From an uncultured Eubacteriales bacterium (GTDB lineage Bacteria > Bacillota > Clostridia > Christensenellales > CAG-138): 28,547 nucleotides of DNA. A model generated the notes under the pieces. It did no database searches, was not told the origin of the DNA, and worked only from the letters and a program-made list of their open reading frames with translations. The translations under genes were made by a program, and so were the position numbers. The stretch is taken from positions 1 through 28,547 of the forward strand of contig URSN01000012.1 in the NCBI GenBank assembly GCA_900550525.1, given 5' to 3'. Positions 88 to 27,527 of this stretch are shown one piece after another (position 1 is the stretch's first letter; the number at the start of each line of letters is the position of its first letter).

Positions 88-783
88 TCAGACGGCGAAA
101 TAGTCGGGATAGCGCTGCATCAGCTCCGGCAGCGCGCCGCGGTACCCGGCCGTCAGGTGCTCGTGGAGGAAGGCGTCCATGTCCTGTTCGCTGCGCGTGA
201 CGAGCGCGCGCAGCAGCTCGCAGTGCTCCTCGTGCGCGGGCCAGAGCTGCTCGGTGCCCAGGCGCACCTGCAGGCGGCGCACCCGGTCGTGGTGGGTGAC
301 GATGCGCATGACGGTCGTCCAGGTCCAGGGCTTGCGCGCGGCGAAGTAGAGGAGCTTGTGGAAGGCGTTGTCCAGCTCCATATAGCCGTCCAGATCGCCC
401 GTTTGCAGGCACAGCTTCTGCTGCTCGATGTTGGCGCGCAGGCGGGCGATGTCCTGCCCGTCGGCCTTTTTGACGGCCTCGCGGAAGATGGCGCACTCGG
501 CGTGGTAGCGCAAAAACACGCCCTCCTCCACCGCGTCCAGATCGATGCGCGACACCATGCTCGAGCGCTGCGGCTGCACGGTGACGAGCTTGGATTCCAC
601 CAGCGACACGATCGCCTCGCGGATGGGCGTGCGGCTCACGCGCAGCGCCTGCGACAGCTCCGCGTCCACCAGCAGCATGCCCGGCGGGAAGTCGAGCGTC
701 ATGATGCGGTTGTAGAGCACGCGGTAGGCGTACTCGCGCGCGTTTTCGCCCGGCGCTTTGGCCGGGAACGGGGCCTGGTCCAT
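88..783 (-). CDS. GntR-family transcriptional regulator, FadR/FCD subfamily
   Basis: A 231-residue DNA-binding regulator. The N-terminal winged helix-turn-helix (about residues 14-78) contains the typical GntR recognition segment around VSRTPIREAI. The C-terminal all-helical FCD ligand domain (about 88-220) carries the D-x3-H pattern (LDNAFH) and later His residues (HEEH, LHEHL) that usually bind a metal and a carboxylate effector. The start is set by an AGGAGG motif about 7 nt upstream of ATG. It is the last gene of the minus-strand uxaE-uxuB set, 95 nt after uxuB. FCD regulators in such positions usually sense a pathway sugar acid and repress both divergent transcripts. Candidate operators are the TGATATAT-type sites at 4054 and 4133. 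The effector (fructuronate, tagaturonate, mannonate or gluconate) cannot be told from sequence. Confidence 0.93.
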   Translation of the reverse strand: MDQAPFPAKAPGENAREYAYRVLYNRIMTLDFPPGMLLVDAELSQALRVSRTPIREAIVSLVESKLVTVQPQRSSMVSRIDLDAVEEGVFLRYHAECAIFREAVKKADGQDIARLRANIEQQKLCLQTGDLDGYMELDNAFHKLLYFAARKPWTWTTVMRIVTHHDRVRRLQVRLGTEQLWPAHEEHCELLRALVTRSEQDMDAFLHEHLTAGYRGALPELMQRYPDYFAV

Positions 784-878: not shown

Positions 879-2498
879 TTACGCCTCCGATACGCGGCGG
901 TGCAGCGCGGCGCGCACCGCGCCGGGGCCCGTGATGAGCTCGGCAAAGCACGCCTCGACCTGCTCGCCAAGGCCGGCCTTATAGAGGTCCACGCCCATGA
1001 TCCGCTCGTCGCTGAGCACGGGGCTGAGCAGCGCGTGCACGTCGCACGGCGCGCCGAGCTTCACGCCGGCAAAGCGCGGCGCGAGCATGGGCATGAGCGG
1101 GTCGTCGCTCGGCTGGAACGGCTTGCCGTCGTCGCCCACGGCCATCAGGTAGCGGCACCAGGCGGCCAGCACGAACGGGATGAGCTTGAGGTCCTTCACG
1201 CAGAGCGTAGCCGACGCGGCGTACTTTTTGATCGTGCTGCCGAAGCGGATGGCGATCTTCTGCGACGTATCGGTGGCGATGCGCTGCGGCGTATCCTGAA
1301 GGAACGGGTTCGGGAAGCGCTTGCCGATGACCTCGTCGATGAACGCGCGCGGGCTGATGACGCCCGGGTCCACCACGACGGGCAGGCCCTCGCGGTAGCC
1401 GACGATCTCCACGAGCTTTTTCAGGTCCGCGTCCTGCATCTCGGCCGAGATGCGGGTGAAGCCCAGCAGGCAGCCGAGCACGGCCAGGCACGTGTGCAGC
1501 GGGTTGAGGCAGGTGCACACCTTCATCGTCTCCACCATATCGACGACCTCGCGCGTGGCGAAGATGACCCCGGCGCGCTCGAGCGGCGGCCGGCCGTTGG
1601 GGAACGCATCCTCGATGACCAGGTACTGCGCCTCCTCCGCGTTGACAAACGGCGCGACGAACGAGCGGCGGCCCGTCACGCGCACGCCCATGTCCGCAAG
1701 GCCGTCCGCCTCCAGCATCTCGCGCACGGAATCGTCCGGCCGCGGGGTGATCTTGTCGATCATGCTCCACGGGAAGGACACGCGCGCGCGGTCGTGCACA
1801 TAGGCGGCAAAGTCCGCGCCGCACAGCCCGCGCTCGGCCCACGCGTCGGCAAAGGCGCACACGGCCGCCTCAAGGCGCGAGCCGTTGTGCGAGCAGTTGT
1901 CCATGCTCACCAGCGCGATGGGCGCGCCGCCGGCGGCGAAGCGCTCGTGGCACAGCGCGGCGATCTTGCCGATGTAGCTCTCGGCGCGCTCCGGCCCGTT
2001 CTCCATGTCGGCGAGCACGGCGGGGAAGTATTCGCCGTGGCCGTCGCGGATGTTGTAGCCCTTTTCGGTGATGGTCAGGCTCGCCATCTTGAGCGTGGGC
2101 GAGCGGAACGCGCGCACCAGGCGCGCCCAGTCGTCCGAGCCGCGGTCCATGGAGAGGCTGTCCACCACGCTGGCGATGACGGTCTTGTGGATGCGGCCGT
2201 CGGCGCAGAGCGTGGCCAGCACCGAGAGGTTGTCGAACGGGCGGTACGCCACGTCCAGGATCTCCGTGTCGAAGCCCTCGGCCACGGCGATGCCCGTGTC
2301 CATCAGGCCCGCGTTGAGCAGCTCCTGGCAGAGGTTGGCGACGAACGCGCGGAAGATGTTGCCCGCGCCAAAGTGCACCCATTCGGGACGCTCGGCGGTG
2401 TTCTTCGCCACGGCGGCGCGGTCGAACGCGGGCAGCGCGTAGCCCTTTTCGCTCAGCGCGGCGCGCTCGGTCAGGATGGTCTGCTGGTTCAGTTTCAT
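879..2498 (-). CDS. uxuB: D-mannonate oxidoreductase / fructuronate reductase (mannitol dehydrogenase family)
   Basis: A 539-residue cytosolic enzyme of the polyol-specific long-chain dehydrogenase family that interconverts D-fructuronate and D-mannonate with NAD(H). The N-terminal Rossmann domain has the HFGAGN nucleotide-binding motif at residues 42-47. The C-terminal catalytic domain holds the family active-site signature K-x5-N-x2-H at K326, N332 and H335. The ATG at 2498 is chosen because AAGGAGG lies upstream; the reading frame is open further upstream but would overlap uxaE. The gene lies 23 nt after uxaE, so the two are surely cotranscribed. A tagaturonate reductase (UxaB) or another family polyol dehydrogenase is possible. 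With an epimerase that converts tagaturonate to fructuronate next door, fructuronate reductase is the economical reading. Confidence 0.9.
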   Translation of the reverse strand: MKLNQQTILTERAALSEKGYALPAFDRAAVAKNTAERPEWVHFGAGNIFRAFVANLCQELLNAGLMDTGIAVAEGFDTEILDVAYRPFDNLSVLATLCADGRIHKTVIASVVDSLSMDRGSDDWARLVRAFRSPTLKMASLTITEKGYNIRDGHGEYFPAVLADMENGPERAESYIGKIAALCHERFAAGGAPIALVSMDNCSHNGSRLEAAVCAFADAWAERGLCGADFAAYVHDRARVSFPWSMIDKITPRPDDSVREMLEADGLADMGVRVTGRRSFVAPFVNAEEAQYLVIEDAFPNGRPPLERAGVIFATREVVDMVETMKVCTCLNPLHTCLAVLGCLLGFTRISAEMQDADLKKLVEIVGYREGLPVVVDPGVISPRAFIDEVIGKRFPNPFLQDTPQRIATDTSQKIAIRFGSTIKKYAASATLCVKDLKLIPFVLAAWCRYLMAVGDDGKPFQPSDDPLMPMLAPRFAGVKLGAPCDVHALLSPVLSDERIMGVDLYKAGLGEQVEACFAELITGPGAVRAALHRRVSEA

Positions 2499-2521
2499 GG
2501 CTGTGCTCCTCCTTGTCAGCG

Positions 2522-3970
2522 TTACTGCCGGGCTGCCAGATAGCGCAGGTGGCGGCCGATGTGGCGCACCAGGCCGGCATAGTATTCCTCCTCGTGCGCG
2601 GCCATGAACGGGAAGAACGCGTCGGCGAACCATTTCTCGTTCAGCAGCAGGCCGTAGGCGATGTGCAGCGTCTGGCGCGAGGCGGGCAGGTCGAGGTATT
2701 CGGGCAGGTAGGCGTCGCTTTGCAGCTCGATGTTCGGGATGTCCTGCGGGTTGGTGGAGACGTGGTAGTACTTCTCCGCCTCGCTGCGGCGCTCGATGGC
2801 GAACTTGTGCGCCCGGCGGTAGAGCGCCGGGTCGTGCGCCGCCACCACGCGCATGGCCTCGAGCCAGTTGGTGCCCGCGGTCTTGACGTGCACGCGCCCG
2901 CCGGTCACGCGGCCGACGGTCGAGAACACGGAGAACTTGTCCGAGCCGGAGTGGACGGACAGCTTGTAGCCGAAATGGTCCGCGATCTGCTGGTGCGCGA
3001 CGAAATCGCGGTAGAAGGCGTTCAGGTCGCCATGGTATTCCACGCCCTTTTCAAACTCGCCCGAGAAGTGCGGCGCGACGCTGACGGGCTTGACGCCCTG
3101 CCGGGCCAGCTCCTGGGCGACGATGAAGTGCTCCGCCGGGGTGGTGATGGTGCGCGTCTCGTCGATGGACAGCTCAAAGTCCACGTCCGCGGTGCGGATC
3201 TCGTCGATATAGCGGTAGCAGCTCTCCGCGTGGCGCACGGCGCGGTAGAACACGAGCACGATGCGGCGCAGCTGCGCGGCCGTCAGCTCGCCCACGATGG
3301 GCAGCGCGCGGCCGAGGTATTCCGCCTCGTAGTGCGCGCGCACGTCCGCCGGCAGCGCGGCGTAGGCCGCCTCGCCCTGCGCGTCGGACAGGGCGGCGGC
3401 GTGGATGTCGATGTGCTCGGAACAGTCGAGCGTGATCATCGTGCAGCCGCTCTCGAGGGCGTACTTGATCTCCTCCTTCGTCTTGAGGTGGTCGCCGTCG
3501 GCGCCGTAACCGTCCCGGTAGCCCTCCTGGAACACGCCGAAGTCCGCGTCGGCGTTCTCGTCCGCTTTGGTGCGGTTTGTGAGCGTCAGCTCGCGGATGG
3601 ACTGCTGCGCCAGCACCGGGTAGACGTCCTGACCCGCGATGGCGCGCACATGGCCGGGCGTGGCCAGGCCGAGCCGGTCGCCCAGGCCCATGGTGAAGGC
3701 GTGCCCGGCGTGGCTGCGGGGCCGGGTGAACGGGAAGAGCGCCTGCAGCGCCTGCGCGATCTCCACCGAGCGCGGGCAGAGCCTGACGCTGCCCGCCTGC
3801 TCGCCGCAAAAGTCTGCGGCCCTGTCGCCCGCGACGGCGAGGCGCTTGTCGAGCCCCGTGCGCACGATGGCGCAGGCGGTGCCCTCCGCGGCGGCGGCGG
3901 AGCGCTCGTACACCTTCGCGCCGTCCAGGCCGCCGAGCAGGCCGAGGAGTGAATCGATCGTGATGGACAT
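2522..3970 (-). CDS. uxaE: Tagaturonate/fructuronate 3-epimerase family protein
   Basis: A 482-residue protein that I recognise as the UxaE (tagaturonate epimerase) family, known from Thermotoga and many Clostridia. It epimerises D-tagaturonate, from galacturonate, to D-fructuronate, so both hexuronates can share one reductase. Length fits the family. Conserved-looking blocks include the histidine/acid-rich segments around HFSGEFEKGVEYHGD and SVHSGSDKFS in the C-terminal half, consistent with a metal-dependent barrel enzyme; exact ligands cannot be assigned here. The start at 3970 follows AGGAGG by about 8 nt; an upstream in-frame ATG would run into the promoter. First gene of the minus-strand transcript, divergent from uxaC. 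The call rests on recalled family similarity plus the strongly supportive neighbours. Confidence 0.88.
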   Translation of the reverse strand: MSITIDSLLGLLGGLDGAKVYERSAAAAEGTACAIVRTGLDKRLAVAGDRAADFCGEQAGSVRLCPRSVEIAQALQALFPFTRPRSHAGHAFTMGLGDRLGLATPGHVRAIAGQDVYPVLAQQSIRELTLTNRTKADENADADFGVFQEGYRDGYGADGDHLKTKEEIKYALESGCTMITLDCSEHIDIHAAALSDAQGEAAYAALPADVRAHYEAEYLGRALPIVGELTAAQLRRIVLVFYRAVRHAESCYRYIDEIRTADVDFELSIDETRTITTPAEHFIVAQELARQGVKPVSVAPHFSGEFEKGVEYHGDLNAFYRDFVAHQQIADHFGYKLSVHSGSDKFSVFSTVGRVTGGRVHVKTAGTNWLEAMRVVAAHDPALYRRAHKFAIERRSEAEKYYHVSTNPQDIPNIELQSDAYLPEYLDLPASRQTLHIAYGLLLNEKWFADAFFPFMAAHEEEYYAGLVRHIGRHLRYLAARQ

Positions 3971-4023
3971 GGGAAAAACCTCCTGTAAGAATGTGTTGAA
4001 AGCGTGGACCGTTTGCAGCTTTA

Positions 4024-4051
4024 AGTATAGCACCATCGCAGGGAAAGTCAA
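4024..4051 (-). promoter_or_regulatory. Sigma-A-type promoter for uxaE-uxuB-gntR
   Basis: On the minus strand TTGACT (4051-4046) and TATACT (4029-4024) are separated by 16 bp, with an extended -10 TG one base upstream of the hexamer. It lies about 54 nt before the uxaE start codon. Confidence 0.75.
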
Positions 4052-4053
4052 AC

Positions 4054-4063
4054 AAATATATCA
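4054..4063 (-). promoter_or_regulatory. Candidate GntR operator upstream of the uxaE promoter
   Basis: TGATATATTT on the minus strand is a half-degenerate copy of the 10-mer palindrome found at 25138. It abuts the uxaE -35 box. Short AT-centred palindromes of this kind are typical FCD-GntR operators; the assignment is inferred. Confidence 0.45.
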
Positions 4064-4123
4064 CGGCCGGGGGGCATAAAATATCTGCGCCGCCTTGATT
4101 TTTGAAAAAACATACCGGGCTTG

Positions 4124-4152
4124 TTGCTTTTCTGATATATTAGTGCTATACT
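4124..4152 (+). promoter_or_regulatory. Sigma-A-type promoter for uxaC operon
   Basis: TTGCTT (4124-4129) and TATACT (4147-4152) with a 17-bp spacer and an extended -10 TG at 4144-4145. It reads right toward uxaC, whose ATG is 77 nt downstream of the -10. Confidence 0.75.
4133..4142 (+). promoter_or_regulatory. Candidate GntR operator within the uxaC promoter spacer
   Basis: TGATATATTA sits between the -35 and -10 boxes of the uxaC promoter, so a bound repressor would block polymerase. It differs by one base from a perfect palindrome. Its centre is 79 bp from that of the copy at 4054, which would allow a looped or cooperative repressor complex on the divergent promoters. Confidence 0.5.
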
Positions 4153-4228
4153 GGCCTCGTCAACGCCGCCCGGGCACGCCCCGGCGCGCGCGACACCCCA
4201 CCGCGGACAAGAAGAAAAGAGGGAAGCT

Positions 4229-5653
4229 ATGAAGCCGTTTCTGGACAAGGATTTCCTGCTCGGCAGCGATACGGCCCGCGCGCTGTACCACGACCATGCC
4301 GAAAAAATGCCCATCGTCGATTACCACTGCCACATCGACCCGAACGAGATCGCGGACGACCGCCGCTACGAGTCGATCACGCAGGTGTGGCTCGGCGGCG
4401 ACCACTACAAGTGGCGCGCCATGCGCTCGGCCGGCGTGCCGGAGCGCCTCATCACCGGCGACGCGGACCCGGAGGAGAAGTTCCTCGCCTGGGCGGAGAC
4501 GGTGCCCAAGCTCATCGGCAACCCGCTCTACCACTGGACGCACCTGGAACTGCAGCGCTATTTCGGCATCGACGAGCCGCTCTCGGGCAGGAATGCAAAG
4601 GCGGTCTACCGCGCGTGCAACGAGGCGCTGGCAAAGCCGGAGCTGTCCGTGCGCGGCATCATCAAAAAGAGCAACGTGAAGCTCATCTGCACCACCGACG
4701 ACCCGGCGGACGGGCTGAGCGCGCACGCGCGCATCGCGGCCGACCCGACGTGCGAGGTCGCCGTGCTGCCCGCCTTCCGGCCGGACAAGGCCATGCGCGC
4801 GGACAAGCCGGACTTTGCCGCGTACATCGGCCGCCTTTCGGCCGCGTGGGGCCAGCCCATCGCGCACATGGACGACCTGCGCGCGGCGCTGTGCGCGCGC
4901 ATCGCGTACTTTGACGCGCGCGGCTGCCGCGTGCGCGCCCACGGCATCGATACGGCGCTGTGCGTGCTCGCCGGCGAGGAGGAGCTCGAGGCCATCCTGC
5001 AAAAGGGCCTTGCCGGCGAGCCGGTGGACCAGCGCGAGTCGGAGGCGTTCCAGACGGCGCTGCTGCTCACCTGCGCGCGGGAATACCAGGCGCGCGGCTG
5101 GGTCATGCAGCTGCACTTTGGCTGCATCCGCAACAACTCCACGCGCATGTTCGAGCGCCTCGGGCCGGACACGGGCTGCGACGCGATGAACGACGAGGGG
5201 CGCAACGCGCCGCGCCTGGCGCGCTTCCTCGACCTGCTCGAGCGCGAGGACGCGCTGCCGCGCACCATCCTCTACTCGCTCAACCCCGCCGACAACGGCG
5301 TCATCGGTACGGTGATGGGGTGCTTCCAGACCGATTCGGACATCGCCGGCCGCATCCAGATGGGCAGCGCCTGGTGGTTCAACGACCACAAGGCGGGCAT
5401 GGAAAAGCAGCTGACCGACCTGATGGACCTCGGCGTGGTCAGCACGTTTGTGGGCATGCTCACCGACAGCCGCAGCTTTTTGAGCTATACCCGGCACGAG
5501 TACTTCCGCCGCATCCTGTGCAGCGTGTTCGGCACGCTCGTGGAGAACGGCGAATACCCGGACGACCGGGAGGCGCTCGGGCGGATCGTGCGCGACATCA
5601 GCTACAACAACGCCCTGCGCTATTTCCGTTTTGACGAGATCCTCAAACCATAA
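4229..5653 (+). CDS. uxaC: Uronate isomerase (glucuronate isomerase)
   Basis: A 474-residue amidohydrolase-superfamily enzyme that isomerises D-glucuronate to D-fructuronate and D-galacturonate to D-tagaturonate, the entry step of hexuronate catabolism in the cytosol. The N-terminal metal-site HxH is seen in VDYHCHIDP (H33, H35), and the family-typical segments CTTDDP and LQLHFG-like (MQLHFGCIRNN) follow. Length matches the family, about 470 residues. The start follows an AGAGGGAAG ribosome binding site. It is the first gene of the rightward transcript, with the PfkB kinase starting 25 nt after its stop. Its product feeds the two enzymes encoded on the divergent transcript, UxaE and UxuB, which ties both transcripts into one pathway. 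Confidence 0.96.
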   Translation: MKPFLDKDFLLGSDTARALYHDHAEKMPIVDYHCHIDPNEIADDRRYESITQVWLGGDHYKWRAMRSAGVPERLITGDADPEEKFLAWAETVPKLIGNPLYHWTHLELQRYFGIDEPLSGRNAKAVYRACNEALAKPELSVRGIIKKSNVKLICTTDDPADGLSAHARIAADPTCEVAVLPAFRPDKAMRADKPDFAAYIGRLSAAWGQPIAHMDDLRAALCARIAYFDARGCRVRAHGIDTALCVLAGEEELEAILQKGLAGEPVDQRESEAFQTALLLTCAREYQARGWVMQLHFGCIRNNSTRMFERLGPDTGCDAMNDEGRNAPRLARFLDLLEREDALPRTILYSLNPADNGVIGTVMGCFQTDSDIAGRIQMGSAWWFNDHKAGMEKQLTDLMDLGVVSTFVGMLTDSRSFLSYTRHEYFRRILCSVFGTLVENGEYPDDREALGRIVRDISYNNALRYFRFDEILKP

Positions 5654-5678
5654 CCATTCATCTTCAGGAGGGACAGCC

Positions 5679-6737
5679 ATGAAACGCTATGCACTCGTCG
5701 TGCCCACCAGCATGGGCGTCCGCATCACCCCGGCGGACCGCCAGCCCGTGCACATCAGCCACAACTATTACATGCAGGCCACCAGCGCGGAGACGAACGT
5801 GGCCAGCGTGCCGGCGGCGCTCGGCCTGCCGGTCAAGGTGCTCACCACGTTCGTGGAGGGCTCGCCCATCGCCGCCTTCATCAAGGCGGACCTGCGCAGC
5901 CGCGGCATGGAGTTCGAGGGGCCGGAGGTGCCCCAGGGCGGGCCGTGGGGCTACCGCCACCAGTTCAACATCGCCGACAGCGGCTTTGGCATGCGCGGCC
6001 CGCGCGTGCAGAACGACCGCGCCGGCGAGGTCGGCCGCACGCTGAACGTGAAGGATTTCGACCTGGACCGCATCTTCGGCCAGGAGGGCGTGGAGGTGCT
6101 GCACCTGTCCGGCCTCATCGCGGCGCTCTCGCATGAGACGAGCGTGTTCTGCCTCGAGCTTGCGCGCGCGGCCAGGCGCTACGGCACGCGCGTCTCGTTC
6201 GACCTCAACTACCGCGCCTCGTTCTGGAAGGGCCGCGAGCAGGAGCTCGCCGACACCTTCCGCGAGATCGCTTCCGTGGCGGACATCCTCATCGGCAACG
6301 AGGAGGACTTCCAGCTCTGCCTCGGCGTGCAGGGCCCGGAGGCGGGCGGCAAGGATCTCGGCTCCAAGATCGACAGCTTCAAGGAGATGATCCTGCGCGT
6401 GCGCCAGCAGTACCCCAACGCGACGACGTTCGCCACCACGCTGCGCCAGGTCGTCAGCGCCAACGAGCATCTGTGGGGCGCGATCCTGCTGCGCGAGGGC
6501 GAGTGGTACGTGGCCGAGCCGCGGCCGATCCAGGTGCTCGACCGCATCGGCGGCGGCGACGGGTTCGTCGGCGGCCTGCTCTACGGCGTGCTCCGCGGCT
6601 GGGGCGGCGAGGACTGCCTGCACTTTGGCTGGGCCACCGGCGCGCTCGCGGCGACCATGCTCAACGACTATGCGCAGCCGGCCGACGAGGAGCAGGTGTG
6701 GGCCGTGTGGAGCGGCAACGCCCGCGTCAAGCGCTGA
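5679..6737 (+). CDS. PfkB-family sugar-acid kinase, 2-keto-3-deoxygluconate kinase-like
   Basis: A 352-residue ribokinase-fold kinase. Signature 2 near residues 288-297 reads DRIGGGDGFVGG, a variant of the usual D-x-GAGDAF in which the catalytic Asp is kept. The segment FDLNYRASFW (about 174-183) resembles the D-x-NYR-x2-LW motif typical of KDG kinases. The start ATG follows AGGAGG; the frame is open upstream into uxaC. KDG kinase normally acts after mannonate dehydratase. That enzyme is not in this window, while gnd and a LarA-type epimerase are. Two roles therefore remain: KDG phosphorylation using a dehydratase encoded elsewhere, or phosphorylation of a sugar acid such as gluconate. The motif favours KDG, and the gene order makes gluconate worth testing. 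Confidence 0.85.
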   Translation: MKRYALVVPTSMGVRITPADRQPVHISHNYYMQATSAETNVASVPAALGLPVKVLTTFVEGSPIAAFIKADLRSRGMEFEGPEVPQGGPWGYRHQFNIADSGFGMRGPRVQNDRAGEVGRTLNVKDFDLDRIFGQEGVEVLHLSGLIAALSHETSVFCLELARAARRYGTRVSFDLNYRASFWKGREQELADTFREIASVADILIGNEEDFQLCLGVQGPEAGGKDLGSKIDSFKEMILRVRQQYPNATTFATTLRQVVSANEHLWGAILLREGEWYVAEPRPIQVLDRIGGGDGFVGGLLYGVLRGWGGEDCLHFGWATGALAATMLNDYAQPADEEQVWAVWSGNARVKR

Positions 6738-6789
6738 AACCGACCCCCCGTGCGGGACAACGAGTACAGAATATAAAAGGAGAGAGACA

Positions 6790-8241
6790 ATGAAAGCGGA
6801 TATCGGTCTGATCGGCCTTGCGGTCATGGGCGAGAACCTCGTGATGAACATGGAGTCCAAGGGCTTCACGGTCGCGGTGTACAACCGCACCACCTCCAAG
6901 GTGAAAAACTTCGTGGAGGGGCGCGCCAAGGGGCTCAACATCATCGGCACCTACTCCCTTGAGGAGCTGGTGGCCGCGCTGAAAAAGCCCCGCCGCGTGA
7001 TGATGATGGTCAAGGCCGGCGCGGCGGTGGACGAGCTGATCGACACGCTCATCCCGCTGCTCGAGCCGGGCGACATCCTCATCGACGGCGGCAACAGCCA
7101 CTTCCCGGATACCATCCGCCGCACGCAGTACGTCGAGTCCAAGGGCCTGCTGTACATCGGCACCGGCGTGTCCGGCGGCGAGGAGGGCGCGCTCAAGGGC
7201 CCGTCCATGATGCCGGGCGGCTCCCCGGCCGCGTGGCCGCACGTCAAGGACGTGTTCCAGGCCATCTGCGCCAAGGTGGAGGACGGCTCCCCCTGCTGCG
7301 AGTGGGTGGGCGAGAACGGCGCCGGCCACTTCGTCAAGATGGTGCACAACGGCATCGAGTACGGCGACATGCAGCTCATCTGCGAGGCGTATCAGCTCAT
7401 GCGCGACGGCCTCGGCATGACGTGCGACGAGATGCACGAGGTGTTCAAGGCGTGGAACGAGACGGAGCTGGACAGCTACCTCATCGAGATCACGCGCGAC
7501 ATCCTCGCCTTCAAGGATACCGACGGCAAGCCGATCGTTGAGAAGATCCTCGACACCGCGGGCCAGAAGGGCACCGGCAAGTGGACGGGCATCGCGGCGC
7601 TGGACGAGGGCGTGCCGCTCACGCTCATCGGCGAGGCGGTGTTCGCGCGCTGCCTCTCGGCCATGAAGGAGGAGCGCGTCGAGGCGGCCGCGCACTTCCC
7701 CAAGGCGGATATGCGCATCGCCTGCGCCGACCGCGCCGCCTTCATCGAGAAGATCCGCCAGGCGCTCTACGCCTCGAAGATCATCTCCTACGCGCAGGGC
7801 TACACGCTCATGCGCGCCGCGGCCAAGACCTACGGCTGGAACCTGAACTACGGCGGCATCGCGCTCATGTGGCGCGGCGGCTGCATCATCCGCTCGGTGT
7901 TCCTGGGCAAGATCAAGGAAGCGTACGACAAGGACCCGCAGCTGCAAAACCTGCTGCTGGACGAGTACTTTGGCAATACCATCCGCAGCCTCGTGCCGGC
8001 CTGGCGCGACGTGGTGGCGGAGGCGGTGCGCCACGGCATCCCGATGCCCGCGTTCTCGTCCGCGCTTGCGTATTTTGACGGCTACACGTCCGCAAAGCTC
8101 CCGGCCAACCTGCTGCAGGCGCAGCGCGACTATTTCGGCGCGCACACCTACGAGCGGCTGGACGCGCCGCGCGGCGAGTTCTTCCACACCAACTGGACCG
8201 GCCACGGCGGCAGCACGTCCGCCTCGACCTACACGGCCTGA
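6790..8241 (+). CDS. gnd: 6-phosphogluconate dehydrogenase (decarboxylating)
   Basis: A 483-residue enzyme oxidising 6-phosphogluconate to ribulose 5-phosphate plus CO2 with NADP+. The N-terminal Rossmann motif GLAVMGENL (9-17) is followed by NRT at 32-34, the pattern usual for NADP+ binding. The substrate loop SGGEEGALKGPSMMPGG starts near residue 128. The catalytic residues K183 and N187 lie in HFVKMVHNGIEYGDMQL. A GTGKWT motif and a C-terminal Gly/Ser/Thr tail (TGHGGSTSASTYTA) complete a full-length dimeric-type enzyme. AAAGGAGAG precedes the ATG. It sits 52 nt after the kinase in a hexuronate operon. A pentose phosphate enzyme here suggests that a gluconate/6-phosphogluconate branch belongs to the pathway. 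Confidence 0.97.
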   Translation: MKADIGLIGLAVMGENLVMNMESKGFTVAVYNRTTSKVKNFVEGRAKGLNIIGTYSLEELVAALKKPRRVMMMVKAGAAVDELIDTLIPLLEPGDILIDGGNSHFPDTIRRTQYVESKGLLYIGTGVSGGEEGALKGPSMMPGGSPAAWPHVKDVFQAICAKVEDGSPCCEWVGENGAGHFVKMVHNGIEYGDMQLICEAYQLMRDGLGMTCDEMHEVFKAWNETELDSYLIEITRDILAFKDTDGKPIVEKILDTAGQKGTGKWTGIAALDEGVPLTLIGEAVFARCLSAMKEERVEAAAHFPKADMRIACADRAAFIEKIRQALYASKIISYAQGYTLMRAAAKTYGWNLNYGGIALMWRGGCIIRSVFLGKIKEAYDKDPQLQNLLLDEYFGNTIRSLVPAWRDVVAEAVRHGIPMPAFSSALAYFDGYTSAKLPANLLQAQRDYFGAHTYERLDAPRGEFFHTNWTGHGGSTSASTYTA

Positions 8242-8247
8242 CCGCGT

Positions 8248-8294
8248 GCGGCGCGCGCCCCCGTCCGGGACCGGATGGGGGCGGCGCCGCTTTT
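8248..8294 (+). terminator. Strong stem-loop with T4 between gnd and the LarA-like gene
   Basis: An imperfect stem of about 19 bp (8248-8268 with 8271-8290, one bulged and one wobble position) is followed by TTTT at 8291-8294. It would act as a partial or full intrinsic terminator after gnd, or as a stabilising hairpin. No AT-rich promoter is visible between it and the next start at 8359. Confidence 0.6.
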
Positions 8295-8358
8295 CCCGCA
8301 TCACAGGCGCAGCGGCGCGCGCAGCAGGCGCGGCGGCGCTGCGGAAAGGAGCTTCATC

Positions 8359-9642
8359 ATGGAACTGTTTTACCGCGCGGCCACGGACGAGGGCCTCAGC
8401 CGCGAGCAGATCCGCGCCGCGCTCGTGCGCTCGCTCGAGGGGCGCAGCCCGAAAAAGGCGCTGCTGATCCCGCCGGATTACACGCGCTACCATTCCAACG
8501 CCGGCTACATCACCAACGTCTACTACCACCTGCTCACGGACGCGGGCTGCGCGGTGGACGTGCTGCCGGCGCTGGGCACGCACGTGCCCGTGACGCAGGC
8601 GGAGGCGGCCGACATGTTCGGCGACATCCCGTTCGACAGGTTCATCACGCACAACTGGCGCACGGATGTGGTGCGCCTGGGCGAGGTGCCGGCCGATTAC
8701 CTCAGGGAGATCACCGACGGCCTGTGGACCGACCCGGTCAGCGTGGAGATCAACCGCCGCGTCATGGACCCGTCCTACGAGCTGATCCTCTCCGTCGGCC
8801 AGGTCGTGCCGCACGAGGTCATCGGCATGGCCAACCACGCCAAGAACCTGTTCGTCGGCGTGGGCGGCAGCGACATGATCAACAAGAGCCACATGGTCGG
8901 CGCGGTCTACGGCATGGAGCGCATGATGGGGCGCGACCACACGCCCGTGCGCAAGATCCTCGACTATGCGCTCGAAAAGTACCTGGCCGGCCGGCCGATC
9001 GTCTTTGCGCTGACGGTGACGACCGCGCCCGGCGGCAACATCCACACGCACGGCCTGTTCATCGGCGACACGCGCCGCGTGCTGGAGGAGGCCGTGGCGC
9101 TCGCGCAGCAGAAGAACATCGACTTTGTGGAGACGGGCATCAAAAAGTGCGTCGTCTACCTCGACCCGAAGGAGTTCCACACCACGTGGCTGGGCAACAA
9201 GGCCGTGTACCGCACGCGCATGGCCATCGCCGACGGCGGCGAGCTGATCGTGCTCGCGCCCGGGGTGGATCATTTCGGCGAGGACCCGGCCATCGACCGG
9301 CTCATCCGCAAGTACGGCTACTGCGGCCGGCTGAAGGTGCTCGAGCAGTTCCGCGCGCCGGAGAACCAGGTCCTGCGGGACAACATGGGCGCCGCGGCGC
9401 CCCTGATCCACGGCTCGACCGACGGGCGCTTCTCCATCACCTACGCCGTGCGGCCGCACATCACGCGCGAGGAGATCGAGGGCGTGCACTTCAAGTGGGC
9501 GGATTACGACGAGATGGCCGCCCGCTACGACCCGCGCAGGCTCAGCTACGGCTACAACATCCTGCCCGGCGGCGAGGAGGTCTACTTCATCCCCAACCCC
9601 GCGCTCGGCCTGTGGATCGACCGCTCCCGCTTCCAGGACTGA
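8359..9642 (+). CDS. LarA-superfamily nickel-pincer racemase/epimerase, candidate D-mannonate/D-gluconate 2-epimerase
   Basis: A 427-residue member of the lactate-racemase (LarA) superfamily. Visible signatures are D-x-T-R at 40-43, GTH at 73-75 (H75), and the block holding H152, K162 and H178. The H152-K162-H178 spacings of 10 and 16 equal those of LarA His174, Lys184 (which tethers the nickel-pincer nucleotide) and His200 (nickel ligand), as I recall that protein; H75 would match His108. The hydride-transfer machinery therefore looks intact. The start is set by GAAAGGAGC upstream of ATG 8359. LarA relatives are known to racemise or epimerise various 2-hydroxy acids, including gluconate/mannonate. 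With UxuB (makes mannonate) and Gnd (uses 6-phosphogluconate) beside it, mannonate-gluconate epimerisation is the best inferred role. No larB, larC or larE cofactor gene is in the window. Confidence 0.88.
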   Translation: MELFYRAATDEGLSREQIRAALVRSLEGRSPKKALLIPPDYTRYHSNAGYITNVYYHLLTDAGCAVDVLPALGTHVPVTQAEAADMFGDIPFDRFITHNWRTDVVRLGEVPADYLREITDGLWTDPVSVEINRRVMDPSYELILSVGQVVPHEVIGMANHAKNLFVGVGGSDMINKSHMVGAVYGMERMMGRDHTPVRKILDYALEKYLAGRPIVFALTVTTAPGGNIHTHGLFIGDTRRVLEEAVALAQQKNIDFVETGIKKCVVYLDPKEFHTTWLGNKAVYRTRMAIADGGELIVLAPGVDHFGEDPAIDRLIRKYGYCGRLKVLEQFRAPENQVLRDNMGAAAPLIHGSTDGRFSITYAVRPHITREEIEGVHFKWADYDEMAARYDPRRLSYGYNILPGGEEVYFIPNPALGLWIDRSRFQD

Positions 9643-9958: not shown

Positions 9959-11275
9959 TTAGGCGAAGGCGTTGTAGATGGCGCGCACGGCGGCCTCGAA
10001 ATCGCCGCTCTCCACGCCGACGATGATGTTCATCTCGGACGAGCCCTGGTCGATCATGCGCACGTTGACGCCCGCCTCGTAGAGCGCGTTGAACAGCTTT
10101 GCGGCGGTGCCGATGTTGCGCACCATGCCCTTGCCCACGGTGGCGATGAGCGCCATGTTCGACTGCAATTCGACGGTCTTGGGGTTGCAGTCGCGCCGGA
10201 TCTCGCGCAGCACGGCCTCCAGGTGCTCGCGCAGCTTCGTGTCGGCCACGACCAGCGACATCGTGTCGATGCCGGAGGGCACGTGCTCAAACGAGATGTT
10301 GTAGCGGTCGAGCACGCGCAGCAGGCGGTAGCCAAAGCCTACCTCGTTGTGCATGTTGTCCTTGAACACGGTGATGACCGTGAAGCCCGTGCGCCCGGCC
10401 ACGCCGGTGAGCACGCCCTCGCGGCGGTAGTATTGCAGGTAGCTGTCCGGCACGACCATGGTGCCCGGCTCGTCGGGCGCGTTGGTGTTGCGCACGTTGA
10501 TGGGGATGTGCGCCTTGCGCACGGGGAAGATGGAATCCTCGTGCAGCACGGTCGCGCCCATGTAGGAGAGCTCGCGCAGTTCCGAATACGTGACCGTGCG
10601 GATGACCTTCGGGTCCTTGACGATGCGCGGGTCCGCCATGAGGAAGCCCGACACGTCCGTCCAGTTCTCGTACACGTCGGCGTGCACGGCGCGCGCGACG
10701 ATGGCGCCGGTGATGTCCGACCCGCCGCGCGAGAACGTTTTGATGCTGCCGTCGCGCCTGCGGCCGTAGAAGCCGGGGATGACCAGCCGGCTGCGCCCCT
10801 CCAGCCGCGGCGTCCATTTCTGCGTGGTCTCGCCGTCGTAGGTGCCGTCGGAATGGAAGCAGATCAGCTCCGCCGCGTCCACGAACGTAAAGCCCAGATA
10901 GTCGGCCAGCAGCAGGGCGTTGAGGTATTCGCCGCGGCTGGCGATGTAGTCCTCGCTCGCGCCGTTTTCCAGGTTCTTGCGCACGGCGTTGAGCTCCGCC
11001 TCGATGTGCGTGGACAGGCCCAGCGCCCGCTCGATCTCCACATAGCGCTCGGCGATGGTGTCGAACGTATCGTAAAAGGACACGCCCTCGGCGTGCTGCG
11101 CATGGCACAGGTACAGCAGGTCCGTGACCTTGTCGTCGCCCGGGAAACGCTTGCCCGGCGCGCTCGGCACGGCGAACTGGCGCGCCCCGTCCGCCTCGAT
11201 GATCGCGCGGACCTTGGCAAACTGCGCGGCGTCGGCCATGGAGCTGCCGCCGAATTTGGTCGTTTTGATGGCCAT
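9959..11275 (-). CDS. lysC: Aspartate kinase with C-terminal ACT domains
   Basis: A 438-residue aspartokinase that phosphorylates aspartate for lysine, threonine, methionine and diaminopimelate synthesis. The amino-acid kinase motif KFGGSS is at residues 7-12. SRGGSD (about 187-192) and TDVSGF/ADPRIV (about 210-222) are typical aspartokinase substrate/ATP segments. Two ACT regulatory domains fill residues about 300-438, implying feedback inhibition by an end product, which cannot be identified from sequence. A weak ribosome binding site (AGGGGAG, about 12 nt) precedes the ATG at 11275. The gene starts 39 nt after the DUF1015 gene on the same strand and probably shares its promoter at 12704. 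Confidence 0.95.
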   Translation of the reverse strand: MAIKTTKFGGSSMADAAQFAKVRAIIEADGARQFAVPSAPGKRFPGDDKVTDLLYLCHAQHAEGVSFYDTFDTIAERYVEIERALGLSTHIEAELNAVRKNLENGASEDYIASRGEYLNALLLADYLGFTFVDAAELICFHSDGTYDGETTQKWTPRLEGRSRLVIPGFYGRRRDGSIKTFSRGGSDITGAIVARAVHADVYENWTDVSGFLMADPRIVKDPKVIRTVTYSELRELSYMGATVLHEDSIFPVRKAHIPINVRNTNAPDEPGTMVVPDSYLQYYRREGVLTGVAGRTGFTVITVFKDNMHNEVGFGYRLLRVLDRYNISFEHVPSGIDTMSLVVADTKLREHLEAVLREIRRDCNPKTVELQSNMALIATVGKGMVRNIGTAAKLFNALYEAGVNVRMIDQGSSEMNIIVGVESGDFEAAVRAIYNAFA

Positions 11276-11314: not shown

Positions 11315-12643
11315 TCATCTTGCGATCTGGCGGCACTCCATGTAATAACGCTTTTCGTTCGCCTCGCCCATGGAGAAGGTCTTGCGCGGCAGCGCCCCGT
11401 CGTACACGACGGTGGGGAACAGCTGCGATTTCTCCATGGCCGGCAGCAGGAAGCCCGTGGCGTTCTCGCGCGCGGCGAGCTCGCGCACCACGTCCTCGCC
11501 GTGGATGTAGTCCACGCTCGCCTGCGGCGCCGCGGCAAGCACCGCGTCGATGGCGTTTTGCAGCGTGCCGACGGCCAGCTGCTGCGCCGGCTCGTGCACG
11601 AGGAGCGCGCCCTGCCCCTCCCGGCAGCAGAACGGCAGCGCGTGCCCCTGCCGCAGCAGGACGCCGATGGACCCGTCGTTTTCAAACCAGCGCGTCTCCA
11701 CGCCGCCGTTTTGCGCCTCGAGCGCCGCGCCGATGCGCCGGATGGCCTCGCGCCCGTCCAGGCCGAACACGACGCGGTGGATGGGCTCGAACTCGATGCC
11801 CTCGTCGTGGACGTTCTCCACCTCCACGAGCGCGTAGCGCGCCGGATGCGTGCGCCTGAGCCCCGGCTTGAGCGTGGCCTTGATGCGCTCCCAGTTGGCC
11901 TTGGCCGTGGCGAAGCTGTGGTTGCCGTCGCCCATGGCGAACAGCAGCGGCGCATGGTCGCCGTACTTGGCGCGGAACGCCTCCGCGTCGGTCAGCGCGG
12001 CGAGCGCGCCGAGCACACCGCGGATCATGCCCTCGTCGGAGACGAGGCGGCCCTCGATGTGCCCGCCGCCGAGCATGAGGTCGGTGTCGTAGAGCAGCTC
12101 CATCTCGTCCGCGCGCGCGGCGAGCGGCTCGATGACCGTGCGGCCCGGGTCGTCGATGAGCACGATGATGTGCGGCAGCTCGAGCTTGGCGCCCTCGCGG
12201 ATGCGCAGGCGCGGCGGGATGCGCGATTCGATCGTCCCCTCCGTGGCGCGGATGAGCGTCGTCGCGCCCTTGTGATAATCATACTGTTCAAGGTCGAGCG
12301 CCATGACCAGCCCGAGGCGCGTGCGCCCGGCCGCGGTGCGGCGCACCAGCGCAAAGCCCTGGTCGTATTTTTTGAGCACGCCGTGGCGCAGGTAGCCAGC
12401 CATGTTCGTGCGGATGGCGTCGATGCGCTGCGCCTCGTCGCGCGCGCCCAGGTATGCCTCCGGCAGGATGAGGTCGAGCGTGGTGGGCGCGCCCGCGGTC
12501 AGCTCGCGCACCTTCTCCCAGTATTCGGGCTGCGAGGTGAACTGGTCGCACGCCACGACGGCCCATTTTTCAAAATTCGTCCCCCGCGGCGGGAGCATGA
12601 TGTTTGGTACGAGTACGCCGACGTTGTTCCGATACCGATCCAT
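11315..12643 (-). CDS. DUF1015 family protein
   Basis: A 442-residue protein that I recognise as DUF1015, a widespread bacterial family of unknown biochemical role. Visible family blocks include the N-terminal region PNIMLPPRGTNFEKWAVVAC, a charged centre, and MGDGNHSFATAKANWE (about residues 230-245), the most characteristic segment. No signal peptide or membrane segment is seen, so it is cytosolic. The ATG at 12643 follows GGGAGG. The frame is open far upstream, but that stretch crosses the promoter and the opposite-strand trkA gene and is a shadow. It forms a two-gene transcript with lysC. Its function is not known, and the neighbour hints only loosely at amino acid metabolism. Confidence 0.87.
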   Translation of the reverse strand: MDRYRNNVGVLVPNIMLPPRGTNFEKWAVVACDQFTSQPEYWEKVRELTAGAPTTLDLILPEAYLGARDEAQRIDAIRTNMAGYLRHGVLKKYDQGFALVRRTAAGRTRLGLVMALDLEQYDYHKGATTLIRATEGTIESRIPPRLRIREGAKLELPHIIVLIDDPGRTVIEPLAARADEMELLYDTDLMLGGGHIEGRLVSDEGMIRGVLGALAALTDAEAFRAKYGDHAPLLFAMGDGNHSFATAKANWERIKATLKPGLRRTHPARYALVEVENVHDEGIEFEPIHRVVFGLDGREAIRRIGAALEAQNGGVETRWFENDGSIGVLLRQGHALPFCCREGQGALLVHEPAQQLAVGTLQNAIDAVLAAAPQASVDYIHGEDVVRELAARENATGFLLPAMEKSQLFPTVVYDGALPRKTFSMGEANEKRYYMECRQIAR

Positions 12644-12934: not shown

Positions 12935-14299
12935 ATGCGGATTTTTATCGTCGGCTGCGGCAAGATCGGGCAGACGCTTGCGCGGCAGCTGGTGGACGAG
13001 GCGCACGACGTGACCGTGGTGGATACCGACGGCCAGGTGCTCGAAAAGATCGGGAACATGCTCGACGTCATCTGCTATGAGGGCAACGGCGCGTCCTACC
13101 TGGCGCTGCGCGACGCGGGCGCGGGGGTGGCGGAGCTGGACATCGCCGTGACAGAGAGCGACGAGGTCTTCATGCTCTGCTGCCGCACGGCGCTCTAGCT
13201 CGGCGCGAAGAACACCGTCGCGCGCGTGCGCAACCCGGAGTATTTCGACCAGCTCTACTTCCTCAAGGAGGATCTGGGCCTGTCCATGGTCATCAACCCG
13301 GAGCTCACCGCCGCGCAGGAGATCGCGCGCATCCTGCGCATCCCGTCGGCGGCGCGGGTGGAGCTGTTCGCCAAGGGGCGCGCGGAGCTGGTCAGCTTCC
13401 GCCTGCCGGCGGACAGCCCGGTCATCGGCGCGCCGCTGTCGCAGCTGCCGCAAAAGCTCGGCGCGCGCGTGCTGTTCTGCGCGGTGGACCGCGGCGGCGA
13501 CGTCTCCATCCCCGACGGCGCGTTCGAGCTGCGCGCGGGCGACCGGGTGTACCTCACCGGCGCGGCGGCGGAGATCGCGGAGGCGTTTCGGCGCATGGGC
13601 ATGGTCTCCTCGCGCGTGCGCGACGTGATCATCGCCGGCGGCGGGCGCATCACCTATTACCTTGCCAACAGCCTCGTGCGCGCGGGCATGCGCGTAAAGA
13701 TCATCGAGCGCGACGCGGAGCGGGCCGCGGAGCTGGGCGCGCTGCTGCCCAAGTGCACCGTGCTGCGCGGCAGCATGGCCGACCATGAGCTGCTGCTGGA
13801 GGAGGGGCTCGCCGGCGCGGACGCGTTCGTGGCGCTCACGGGGCTGGACGAGGGCAACATCCTCGCGGCCATGTACGCCGCCTCGAGCGGCGCGCGCAAG
13901 GTCATCGCCAAGGTGAACAACGAGAACCTCACCCGCCTCATCCGCGACAGCAGCCTGGAGAGCGCCATCTCCCCGCGCGACCTGACGGCCAACCGCATCG
14001 TGGCCTATGTGCGCTCGGTCAATGCGTCGCTGGAGAGCAGCAACATCGAGTCGCTGTTCCAGATCGTGGGCGGCAAGGTGGAGGTGCTGGAGTTTCGGGC
14101 CGGGCGCGAGGGCGCCTATCTGCGCGTGCCGCTCAAGGACCTGGCGCTGCGCCCCGGCGTGCTGATCGCCTGCCTCGTGCGCAGCGGCAGGGCGCACATC
14201 CCCGGCGGCATGGACAGCATCGAGCCGGGGGACGGCGTGCTGGTGGGCACCAAGGACCATCACCTGACGGAGCTTTCCGATATCCTTGCAGAGCAGTAG
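12935..14299 (+). pseudogene. trkA: TrkA potassium-uptake regulator, interrupted by an in-frame amber codon
   Basis: Full length would be 454 codons, the usual TrkA size, encoding the peripheral NAD(H)-binding subunit that gates the TrkH channel. Two RCK units are visible. The first begins RIFIVGCGKIGQ (GxGxxG dinucleotide fold), and the second starts near residue 230 with DVIIAGGGRITYYLA. The frame is uninterrupted except for TAG at 13196-13198, codon 88, where relatives usually have a charged residue just before LGAKNT-ARVRNPEY. Homology resumes at once after it, in frame. GGAAGGAGG precedes the ATG. A downstream GTG at 13226 could restart translation but has no ribosome binding site and would lack most of the first nucleotide fold. 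Possible causes are a real mutation, a sequence error or readthrough. trkH follows 24 nt after the terminal TAG. Confidence 0.85.
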
Positions 14300-14323
14300 C
14301 GCCGGTCGGGAGGAACAGAGACC

Positions 14324-15772
14324 GTGAACAGACGGATGATCCTATACCTGCTCGGCAGGATACTGACGGTGGAGGCGGCGCTGATGGCCCCCTCCGCGGC
14401 GCTGGCCGCCATCTACGGCGAGGGCGACCTCTCCGCCTTCCTCATCTCGATGGCGCTGCTGCTGGCCGTGGGGCTGCCGCTTTCGGTGAACAAGCCGGAA
14501 AACAGCGCCATCTACGCGCGCGAGGGGCTCGTGACCGTGGCGCTTGCCTGGGTGCTCATGAGTGCGTTCGGCGCGCTGCCGATGGTGATCAGCGGCGCGA
14601 TCCCGTCGTATGTGGACGCGCTGTTTGAGATCGTCTCCGGCTTTACGACCACCGGCGCGTCGATCCTCTCCGAGGTGGAGTCGCTGCCGCGCGGGGTGCT
14701 GTTCTGGCGCAGCTTTTCGCACTGGGTCGGCGGCATGGGCGTGCTGGTGTTCGTCATGGCCGTGCTGCCCATGTCGGACGACCGCTCGATGGTGCTCATG
14801 CGCGCGGAGGTGCCGGGGCCGACGGCCAGCAAGCTCGTGCCGCGCATGCGCCAGACGGCCAAGATCCTCTACGGCACCTATTCGGTCATGACGCTCGTGC
14901 TGATCGTGCTGCTGCTGCTGGGCGGCATGCCCGCCTTCGACGCGGTGTGCAACGCCATGGGCGCGGCCGGCACGGGCGGCTTCAGCGTGCGCAACATCGG
15001 CATCGCGTATTACGACAGCGCGTATGCGGACGTGGTGCTCTCGGTGTTCAAGCTGCTGTTCTCCATCAACTTCAACCTGTACTACCTCATCCTCATCCGC
15101 CGCGTGCGCGAGGCGCTGCGCAGCGAGGAGCTGCGCTGGTTCGTGGCGATCGTGGCCGGCGCGACGGTCATCATCACGCTGTGCGTGCTGCCGCAGTACG
15201 GCACGCTCGGCCTGTCACTGCGGCATGCGTTTTTCCAGGTGTCCTCCATCATCTCCACCACCGGCTATGCCACGACGGACTTTGCGCTCTGGCCGGTGCT
15301 GGCGCAGGAGGTGCTGCTGGTGCTCATGTTCATCGGCGCGTGCGCCGGCTCCACCGGCGGCGGCTACAAGGTGTCGCGCCTGGCGATTGCGTGCAAGTCG
15401 TTCGGCGCGGAGCTGCGCCATGTGCTGCATCCGCGCGCGGTGACGACCATCCGCTTCGACGGCCGGGCCGTGGAACAGGAGACGGTCACCGGCACGCGCA
15501 ACTACCTCATCGGCAGCATGCTCATCCTGACGGTGGTGACGCTGCTCATCGCGCTGGACGGGTTCGACTTTACGACGAACTTCTCCGCCACGCTCTCGTG
15601 CTTTAGCAACATCGGGCCCGGGCTTGCCCAGGTGGGGCCGATGAGCAACTTCGGCGCCTATTCGCCGTTTTCCAAGCTCCTGCTCACGGCCACCATGCTG
15701 GCCGGGCGGCTGGAGGTATTCCCCATCGTGCTGCTGCTCTCGCCGCGCACCTGGCGGCGCAGCGCCGCCTGA
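14324..15772 (+). CDS. trkH: TrkH-type potassium uptake channel subunit
   Basis: A 482-residue polytopic membrane protein that forms the K+ translocation pathway with TrkA. The four pore-loop repeats of the Trk/Ktr/HKT superfamily are visible as SGFTTTGAS (about 105), GAAGTGGFS (about 213), STTGYATTD (about 311) and SNIGPGL (about 427), each with the selectivity-filter glycine. Hydrophobic helices flank each one. GTG 14324 is the start, preceded by GGGAGGA at a 9-nt distance. It lies in the same reading frame as trkA, separated by the trkA terminal TAG. It is cotranscribed with the interrupted trkA, so if trkA is inactive TrkH would lack its normal gating partner. Confidence 0.95.
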   Translation: MNRRMILYLLGRILTVEAALMAPSAALAAIYGEGDLSAFLISMALLLAVGLPLSVNKPENSAIYAREGLVTVALAWVLMSAFGALPMVISGAIPSYVDALFEIVSGFTTTGASILSEVESLPRGVLFWRSFSHWVGGMGVLVFVMAVLPMSDDRSMVLMRAEVPGPTASKLVPRMRQTAKILYGTYSVMTLVLIVLLLLGGMPAFDAVCNAMGAAGTGGFSVRNIGIAYYDSAYADVVLSVFKLLFSINFNLYYLILIRRVREALRSEELRWFVAIVAGATVIITLCVLPQYGTLGLSLRHAFFQVSSIISTTGYATTDFALWPVLAQEVLLVLMFIGACAGSTGGGYKVSRLAIACKSFGAELRHVLHPRAVTTIRFDGRAVEQETVTGTRNYLIGSMLILTVVTLLIALDGFDFTTNFSATLSCFSNIGPGLAQVGPMSNFGAYSPFSKLLLTATMLAGRLEVFPIVLLLSPRTWRRSAA

Positions 15773-26533: not shown

Positions 26534-26542
26534 CCGCTGACG

Positions 26543-26576
26543 GCGGCGCGTCCGCCCGCGCGGGCGGGCGCGCCGC
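26543..26576 (+). other. Intercistronic hairpin between binding protein and permease
   Basis: An 8-bp outer stem (26543-26550 with 26569-26576) and a 6-bp inner stem (26553-26558 with 26561-26566) are separated by a 2x2 mismatch. No T-run follows. Such hairpins often protect the binding-protein mRNA so that it is made in excess over the membrane subunits. Confidence 0.6.
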
Positions 26577-26606
26577 ACGCATCAAAGCAAAGGAACCCGA
26601 TCGCAT

Positions 26607-27521: not shown

Positions 27522-27527
27522 GGCGGC

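Follow-up and report, generated by a model that had tools for sequence, protein, structure and literature searches.

The window analysed here, a 28,547-nucleotide stretch (69% G+C) of contig URSN01000012.1 from an uncultured Eubacteriales bacterium, carries a divergent gene cluster which, with a probability that we put at roughly 0.8, catabolises glucuronate and galacturonate via mannonate, 6-phosphogluconate and ribulose 5-phosphate with the help of a LarA-type C2 epimerase. A sequence-only reading had proposed the same succession of intermediates, which is now supported by gene content, by the context in relatives and by conserved residues. Its gene layout, with gntR, a uxuB-like gene and uxaE on one strand and uxaC, a PfkB-family kinase, gnd and a LarA relative on the other, was confirmed by family matches:

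88..783, minus strand: GntR/FCD regulator, probable local regulator (PF07729 67.5 bits, PF00392 45.6 bits)
879..2498, minus strand: UxuB-like protein of the mannitol-dehydrogenase family (PF08125/PF01232), probably converting fructuronate to D-mannonate
2522..3970, minus strand: UxaE, tagaturonate/fructuronate epimerase (PF16257 534.8 bits)
3971..4228, no strand: divergent intergenic region of 258 bases with probable promoters, from direct reading of the sequence
4229..5653, plus strand: UxaC, glucuronate/galacturonate isomerase (PF02614 658 bits; NF002794 610 bits, cut-off 387)
5679..6737, plus strand: PfkB-family sugar-acid kinase, probable gluconate (or mannonate) 6-kinase (PF00294 76.4 bits)
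6787..8241, plus strand: Gnd, NADP 6-phosphogluconate dehydrogenase (equivalog TIGR00873 769.8 bits, cut-off 426.7)
8359..9642, plus strand: LarA-like protein, predicted nickel-pincer hexonate C2-epimerase of LarAH group 18 (NF052594 603.8 bits, cut-off 500)

In the proposed route, UxaC would convert glucuronate to fructuronate and galacturonate to tagaturonate, UxaE would interconvert tagaturonate and fructuronate, and the UxuB-like reductase would deliver D-mannonate. In place of the dehydration by UxuA, the group-18 protein (LarAH18) would invert C2 of mannonate by nickel-pincer hydride transfer; the PfkB kinase would phosphorylate C6 and, together with the epimerase, yield 6-phosphogluconate, from which Gnd would form ribulose 5-phosphate, CO2 and NADPH. 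Gene families, linkage, co-occurrence and residues are what the data show; each enzyme activity, the order of the steps and the regulation of the cluster by the GntR protein are inferred. The nearest relative of the window (L001/L084) has a gntR copy at the same place (62% identity) and a UxuB-like gene 74% identical to that of the window. Neither UxuA nor the aldolase for 2-keto-3-deoxy-6-phosphogluconate (KDPG), both reported missing in the sequence-only reading, was found in the window by tblastn with proteins from relatives, the best E values being 0.66 and 0.088 and none credible. An Rfam scan of the window gave no match at gathering score.

The LarA-like protein exceeds the cut-off of NF052594, labelled in NCBIfam as 'nickel-dependent putative hexonate epimerase', and this group-18 model is its best NCBIfam family, which places it outside the GntE groups 19 and 20. 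It is for these two groups that epimerisation between D-mannonate and D-gluconate has been proven, as stated in the part of Desguin et al. 2020 (PMC7583248) available to us, where group 18 is proposed to act on a hexonate. A PDB search with the window protein returned a single match at E ≤ 0.001, namely 4NAR (GntE2, 96 bits). Through this alignment and the residue numbers in the same portion of PMC7583248, the catalytic residues and those binding the nickel-pincer nucleotide (NPN) in LarA, D72, R75, H108, H174, K184, H200 and K298, correspond to D40, R43, H75, H152, K162, H178 and K281 in the window protein. All of these, as well as E153, V154 and W277, are invariant in 81 of 81 LarAH18 proteins, and the E-V loop, tied to hexonates by Desguin et al. 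in that portion, is present in LarAH18. Judged by family cut-off and residues, the window protein is a predicted NPN-dependent member of the LarA superfamily. It belongs to a cluster of 51 database sequences at 99% identity, and a homolog of 86% identity carries the name Candidatus Aphodomorpha, which makes a gut bacterium of this type the probable source.

A profile from 19 homologs was scanned against genome contigs, and the best 80 of 583 confirmed LarAH18 loci were used for a survey of gene neighbourhoods. Among these 80, gnd (at least 50% identity) lies on 61, the operon kinase (at least 60%) on 42 and both on 42, and the order kinase-gnd-larA is kept in 41 of the 42 loci that have all three. 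Matches above 200 bits were obtained for UxaC on 24 loci, for UxaE on 15 and for a UxuB-type protein on 11. Where more than 6 kb precede larA (52 loci), gnd is found upstream in 44 and the kinase in 39. At E ≤ 1e-15, one family of short-chain dehydrogenases/reductases (SDR) was matched on 34 of the 80 loci, and 27 of these, the query's own locus included, score above 300 bits; because the copy of this family at L007 is a 'D-mannonate oxidoreductase' (NF006132, 424 versus 281 bits), the SDR-bearing clusters probably make mannonate as well. A second sample consisted of 293 genomes of one class, for which a completeness filter of 95 was requested and values were not displayed. Here, LarAH18 is present in 36 genomes (35 over cut-off, plus G154 on three fragments), and the 36 regions hold the same genes in shuffled order, with gnd in 28. 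A kinase ortholog (at least 64% identity) was found in 28 genomes of the class, 27 of them LarAH18-positive (Fisher 2e-29), or 26 if the fragmented G154 is set aside. Gene linkage around LarAH18 exceeds chance, and kinase and epimerase travel together.

All statements about whole genomes refer to relatives rather than to the genome of the window itself. For these, 50 LarAH18 genomes, mostly metagenome bins whose completeness values were not shown, were picked for gnd on the locus (50 of the 61 such loci); the remaining 30 of the 80 loci (L009, L018, L024, L026-L028, L030-L032, L035, L038, L041, L047, L048, L051, L052, L054, L056, L059, L060, L062, L068, L071-L076, L079 and L080) were left out. 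The search for uxuA, kdgA and FGGY genes called for by the sequence-only reading was run in this set. UxuA was over cut-off in 11 of the 50 genomes (12 at E ≤ 0.001) and absent at that cut-off in 39; KDPG/2-keto-4-hydroxyglutarate (KHG) aldolase was found in 31. FGGY gluconokinase was over cut-off in none, TIGR01314 staying below it in all 50, in a search that covered FGGY and left P-loop (GntK-type) gluconokinases aside; an FGGY enzyme as the hidden kinase was rejected on this ground. As glucose-6-phosphate dehydrogenase (G6PDH) was detected in 3 genomes, with none in the other 47, and FGGY gluconokinase in none, Gnd in LarAH18 genomes seems not to be fed by glucose.

The sequence-only reading had remarked that the kinase resembles a kinase for 2-keto-3-deoxygluconate (KDG). 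This is true in so far as the nearest solved relatives are KDG kinases, T. maritima 2afb first among them, and together with the 31 aldolase-positive and 11 UxuA-positive genomes it would fit an Ashwell/Entner-Doudoroff or mixed pathway, in which the operon kinase acts on KDG and UxuA and KdgA are encoded elsewhere in the genome. Such a pathway is nevertheless very improbable. From 17 of the 31 genomes with an aldolase, 17 KDPG-aldolase loci were retrieved; in 12 of these a separate PfkB kinase, kdgK, stands within 1.3 kb of kdgA, and in the window's closest relative (L001/L084) kdgA-kdgK lie just upstream of the cluster. These 12 kinases are 50-100% identical to the kdgK of L001, which itself shares 29% identity with the window kinase. 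Furthermore, the available portion of PMC5334617 lists Gly34, Tyr90, Tyr106, Arg108, Arg166, Asp258 and Asp294 for KDG recognition in S. solfataricus. Operon kinases (40 orthologs of at least 60% identity were aligned) preserve both arginines and both aspartates, as R114, R179, D294 and D330, in 41/41, and carry serine in the Gly34 column (40/40), asparagine in the Tyr90 column (40/40) and asparagine in the Tyr106 column (40/41), whereas glycine and both tyrosines are retained in 12/12 kdgA-linked kinases; motif and order, rather than an alignment to the S. solfataricus protein, served to assign the columns, that of Gly34 being less sure than those of the tyrosines. The KDG-recognition set is thus incomplete in the operon kinase, which moreover tracks LarAH18 and Gnd. 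Judging from these sequences, it is a family separate from the KDG kinases near kdgA in the same genomes; the doubt about its identity is largely removed, KDG kinase being rejected, and its substrate would be a hexonate with hydroxyls at both C2 and C3.

Returning to the route via 6-phosphogluconate, the passage from mannonate to 6-phosphogluconate put forward in the sequence-only reading is supported, while its two steps could come in either order, because extracts of L. suebicus phosphorylate mannonate first. The outline of the route had already been proposed for Thermotoga, with the epimerase activity proven (GntE), and a variant had been shown in L. suebicus. We lean slightly towards epimerisation first, from mannonate to gluconate and on to 6-phosphogluconate. 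In the reverse order, which appears rather unlikely, the PfkB protein would be a mannonate 6-kinase and LarAH18 a 6-phosphomannonate 2-epimerase, as in the L. suebicus extracts of Valk et al. 2020 (PMC6978723), where mannonate kinase is followed by 6-phosphomannonate 2-epimerase and the genes are given as unknown in the portion available. According to that portion, the extract made no gluconate from mannonate without ATP and showed a low apparent Km for mannonate. Along these lines, the Km values of tested GntE enzymes for free D-mannonate are high, 17 and 120 mM in the accessible part of PMC7583248 and 9.4 mM in that of PMC11770544. On the other hand, the GntE enzymes reported in these same parts do act on free mannonate, and the L. 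suebicus paper, whose available text holds neither 'LarA' nor 'nickel', suggests gluconate-kinase homologs together with an aldose-1-epimerase-like protein.

There is a slim chance that LarAH18 acts on another hexonate or uronate, handing a product other than gluconate to the kinase, with Gnd serving for NADPH only. Group 18 came without tested activity in the 2020 paper, and Desguin et al. doubted that mannonate is the native substrate of group 19 (PMC7583248, in the part available). Opposed to this, D-mannonate is the substrate that plainly suggests itself, given that UxaE and a reductase yielding mannonate are encoded in the same clusters, and in the 47 of 50 genomes where G6PDH is missing there is no other evident source of 6-phosphogluconate for Gnd.

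Several points, among them the limit of the gluconokinase search and the undisplayed completeness values mentioned above, weigh against the route via mannonate and 6-phosphogluconate. The name UxuB rests on family and context, because the protein reaches 105.7 bits against the NCBIfam fructuronate reductase model, far under its cut-off of 603. Among the 52 loci that extend more than 6 kb upstream of larA, 8 have no gnd there (L024, L028, L032, L038, L052, L054, L059 and L071), five of these eight being in Kiritimatiellae, Victivallales or Verrucomicrobia records; LarAH18 perhaps has another partner there, or the genes are scattered. In the class sample, UxuA is present in 12/36 LarAH18 genomes and 93/257 others, with no association either way. 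A simple replacement of UxuA by LarAH18 was therefore rejected; the frequency of UxuA and that of KDPG/KHG aldolase, itself an unfavourable count, mean that both routes can coexist. Of the bypass of the Ashwell/Entner-Doudoroff pathway that had been suggested earlier, the absence of UxuA and KdgA from the window stands, and avoidance of UxuA beyond chance does not. In the portions of the literature available, no activity was found reported for any LarA of group 18 or for the operon PfkB kinase: PMC11770544 (2024) adds a Phytophthora GntE and has neither 'group 18' nor 'LarAH18' in its main text, and the words 'gluconate' and 'mannonate' are absent from PMC12611868 (2025), on LarA-like structures. 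The last of these points concerns the cofactor, as 26 of the 50 LarAH18 genomes have none of LarB, LarC and LarE over cut-off.

The complete set of these three biosynthesis proteins was found in 20 of the 50 genomes and a partial set in 4 (LarC only in G001, G012 and G014, LarE only in G017), which amounts to LarC in 23, LarE over cut-off in 21 and LarB over cut-off in 20. G004, counted among the 26, shows a truncated match to LarE just short of the cut-off (148.4 versus 150 bits), so that a stricter count is 25. The nearest relative of the window has LarC only. The ten catalytic, NPN-binding and loop residues are also invariant in the 26 genomes without lar biosynthesis genes. Pure assembly gaps were rejected as the cause, given the split into 20 complete, 26 empty and 4 partial sets and the LarAH18 genomes G084 and G202, in which no LarC was found although the main contigs measure 3.13 and 2.97 Mb. 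On the LarAH18 tree, the state without LarB, LarC and LarE changes 13 times, at least 6 of them on well-supported branches. In the class sample, LarC is present in 14/36 LarAH18 genomes and 129/257 others, weak matches in G063, G081 and G331 being scored as LarC-minus, and its state changes 11 times, again at least 6 on well-supported branches. Genomes with larBCE and without larA were reported in mBio in 2024 (PMC11796402), the available portion of which makes no mention of the reverse case. This cofactor puzzle may, tentatively and as yet unproven, be a more interesting lead than the route itself.

A conceivable, if somewhat doubtful, solution is salvage: the S component of an energy-coupling factor (ECF) transporter, of family PF12822, might take up either the pincer nucleoside or a precursor without nickel, a kinase might make the nucleotide, and LarC might add nickel where only larC has been kept. 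Each of the three LarC-only genomes has such an S component immediately upstream of larC. Homologs of S stand directly after larA18 in the isolate Peloplasma aerotolerans (L049) and in UBA6235 (L033), 2 of the best 80 of 583 loci, both genomes having no lar biosynthesis genes over cut-off; in both, S is followed by a nucleoside-kinase-like gene. In G092 (L150), S directly precedes a LarA homolog of another group (E 2e-5). The regions are:

L049:11364-12730, S beside larA18
L033:11242-12666, S beside larA18
L081:4696-6511, L082:6070-7836 and L083:6455-8314, S beside larC
L150:4719-6544, S beside another larA homolog

The S component passed no NCBIfam cut-off, and its nearest PDB match is a folate-type S component (E 6e-4). 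A P-loop kinase directly follows 37 of 52 S genes (best matches and chosen contexts, hence not random); its profile matches are uridine kinases and nicotinamide riboside kinase 1, and its model matches uridine-cytidine kinases (mean predicted local distance difference test score 82, best Foldseek E 7.5e-10). The class sample is independent of the origin of the salvage idea; at most 11 candidates per genome were scored for S, so that absences may be misses. At thresholds of at least 100, 150 and 200 bits, S was found in 19, 19 and 10 of 22 LarAH18 genomes without LarC, in 7, 4 and 4 of 14 LarAH18 genomes with LarC, in 48, 36 and 27 of 128 genomes with neither, and in 33, 24 and 8 of 129 with LarC and no LarAH18; the first group differs from the third with p values of 3e-5, 3e-7 and 0.03, kinship ignored. 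LarC-less genomes with weaker LarA matches only have S in 8 of 9 cases. In genomes without LarAH18, S tends to occur where LarC is absent (p 5e-4 at 200, 0.08 at 150 and 0.045 at 100 bits, kinship again ignored). Well-supported branches yielded 6 independent pairs; on average, S follows the loss of LarC in 2.6 (100 bits) or 3.7 (150 bits) of them, and the opposite direction occurs in 0.0 on average, once in a few of the 200 pairings; with median p values of 0.25 and 0.125, n is too small.

Against salvage, S also occurs in 40 of 119 class genomes without LarC or any LarA match, so that other cargo is possible for this family; no S reaches 100 bits in 3 of the 22 LarAH18 genomes without LarC, and no S match came up in any of the 36 LarAH18 regions of the class. 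Neither S nor the nucleoside-kinase-like gene was found in the window, and Rfam returned one tmRNA, one 6S RNA and no riboswitch on 20 S loci and nothing on the window, L049, L033 or L150. No literature linking an ECF transporter with the pincer cofactor was found. If salvage is true, LarAH18 owners would switch between synthesis and uptake of the cofactor, and the nearest relative of the window, which has its S component by larC and neither LarB nor LarE over cut-off, would import a precursor. The same pattern is known from vitamins, for instance B12.

Other genes were seen near S. A GTPase gene of the CobW/HypB/UreG type directly follows larC (L082:5117-6073) and may encode a nickel chaperone. 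DUF3842 (PF12953) recurs in 14 S contexts and, by tblastn, in L005 (for example L133:7265-7714, L137:7217-7657 and L141:7755-8213), with DUF362 also near S in L141. In the S contexts L101-L131 the nucleoside-kinase-like protein often has an N-terminal domain of about 150 residues, for which two examples gave no Pfam match over cut-off; S in L141 is followed by this domain on its own. In the window, the cluster is followed by an aspartokinase-like gene (9959-11275, minus strand; AA_kinase and ACT) and a DUF1015 match (about 11546-12592, minus strand), both probably unrelated to it, and further on by TrkA/TrkH-type potassium uptake genes (13226-15772, plus strand) and an ABC transporter of the ABC_sub_bind type (25505-28322, plus strand).

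The outline of the route is already known; what is new is that the LarAH18 and PfkB families are tied to it, in gut Clostridia, Spirochaetota and others. If true, it would provide cells that for the most part have no G6PDH match with NADPH and pentose phosphate derived from pectin sugars, and the cofactor-gene gaps in about half of the owners examined make a sharing of nickel cofactor from microbe to microbe testable. Among known systems, one to compare is LarMNQO of L. plantarum, a nickel ECF transporter. It resembles the salvage system in being an ECF-type transporter linked to lar genes, whereas the S component of the relatives belongs to PF12822 and is often accompanied by a nucleoside-kinase-like gene, instead of being a nickel component of the CbiM type. 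With the canonical Ashwell pathway (UxuA, KdgK, KdgA) the cluster has the upper half and the kinase superfamily in common; it differs in that the window has no UxuA or KdgA match and the operon kinase lacks the KDG-contact tyrosines. Also comparable are GntE1/GntE2 (groups 19 and 20) and the Thermotoga route, for which the available part of PMC7583248 credits Rodionova et al. 2012 with the idea that epimerisation gives mannonate access to the pentose phosphate pathway. There, too, hexuronate genes lie by a LarA relative and mannonate passes through gluconate to the pentose phosphates; here, however, the epimerase is of LarAH group 18, a PfkB kinase replaces the gluconate kinase gntK, and no G6PDH was found in 47/50 owners. 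Finally, the galacturonate pathway of L. suebicus, as described in the portion of PMC6978723 available, likewise comprises UxaC, UxaE, UxuB, the conversion of mannonate to 6-phosphogluconate, and Gnd. In that organism the kinase comes first and the genes are unknown, whereas here candidate genes for a like step from mannonate to 6-phosphogluconate can be named and form one operon.

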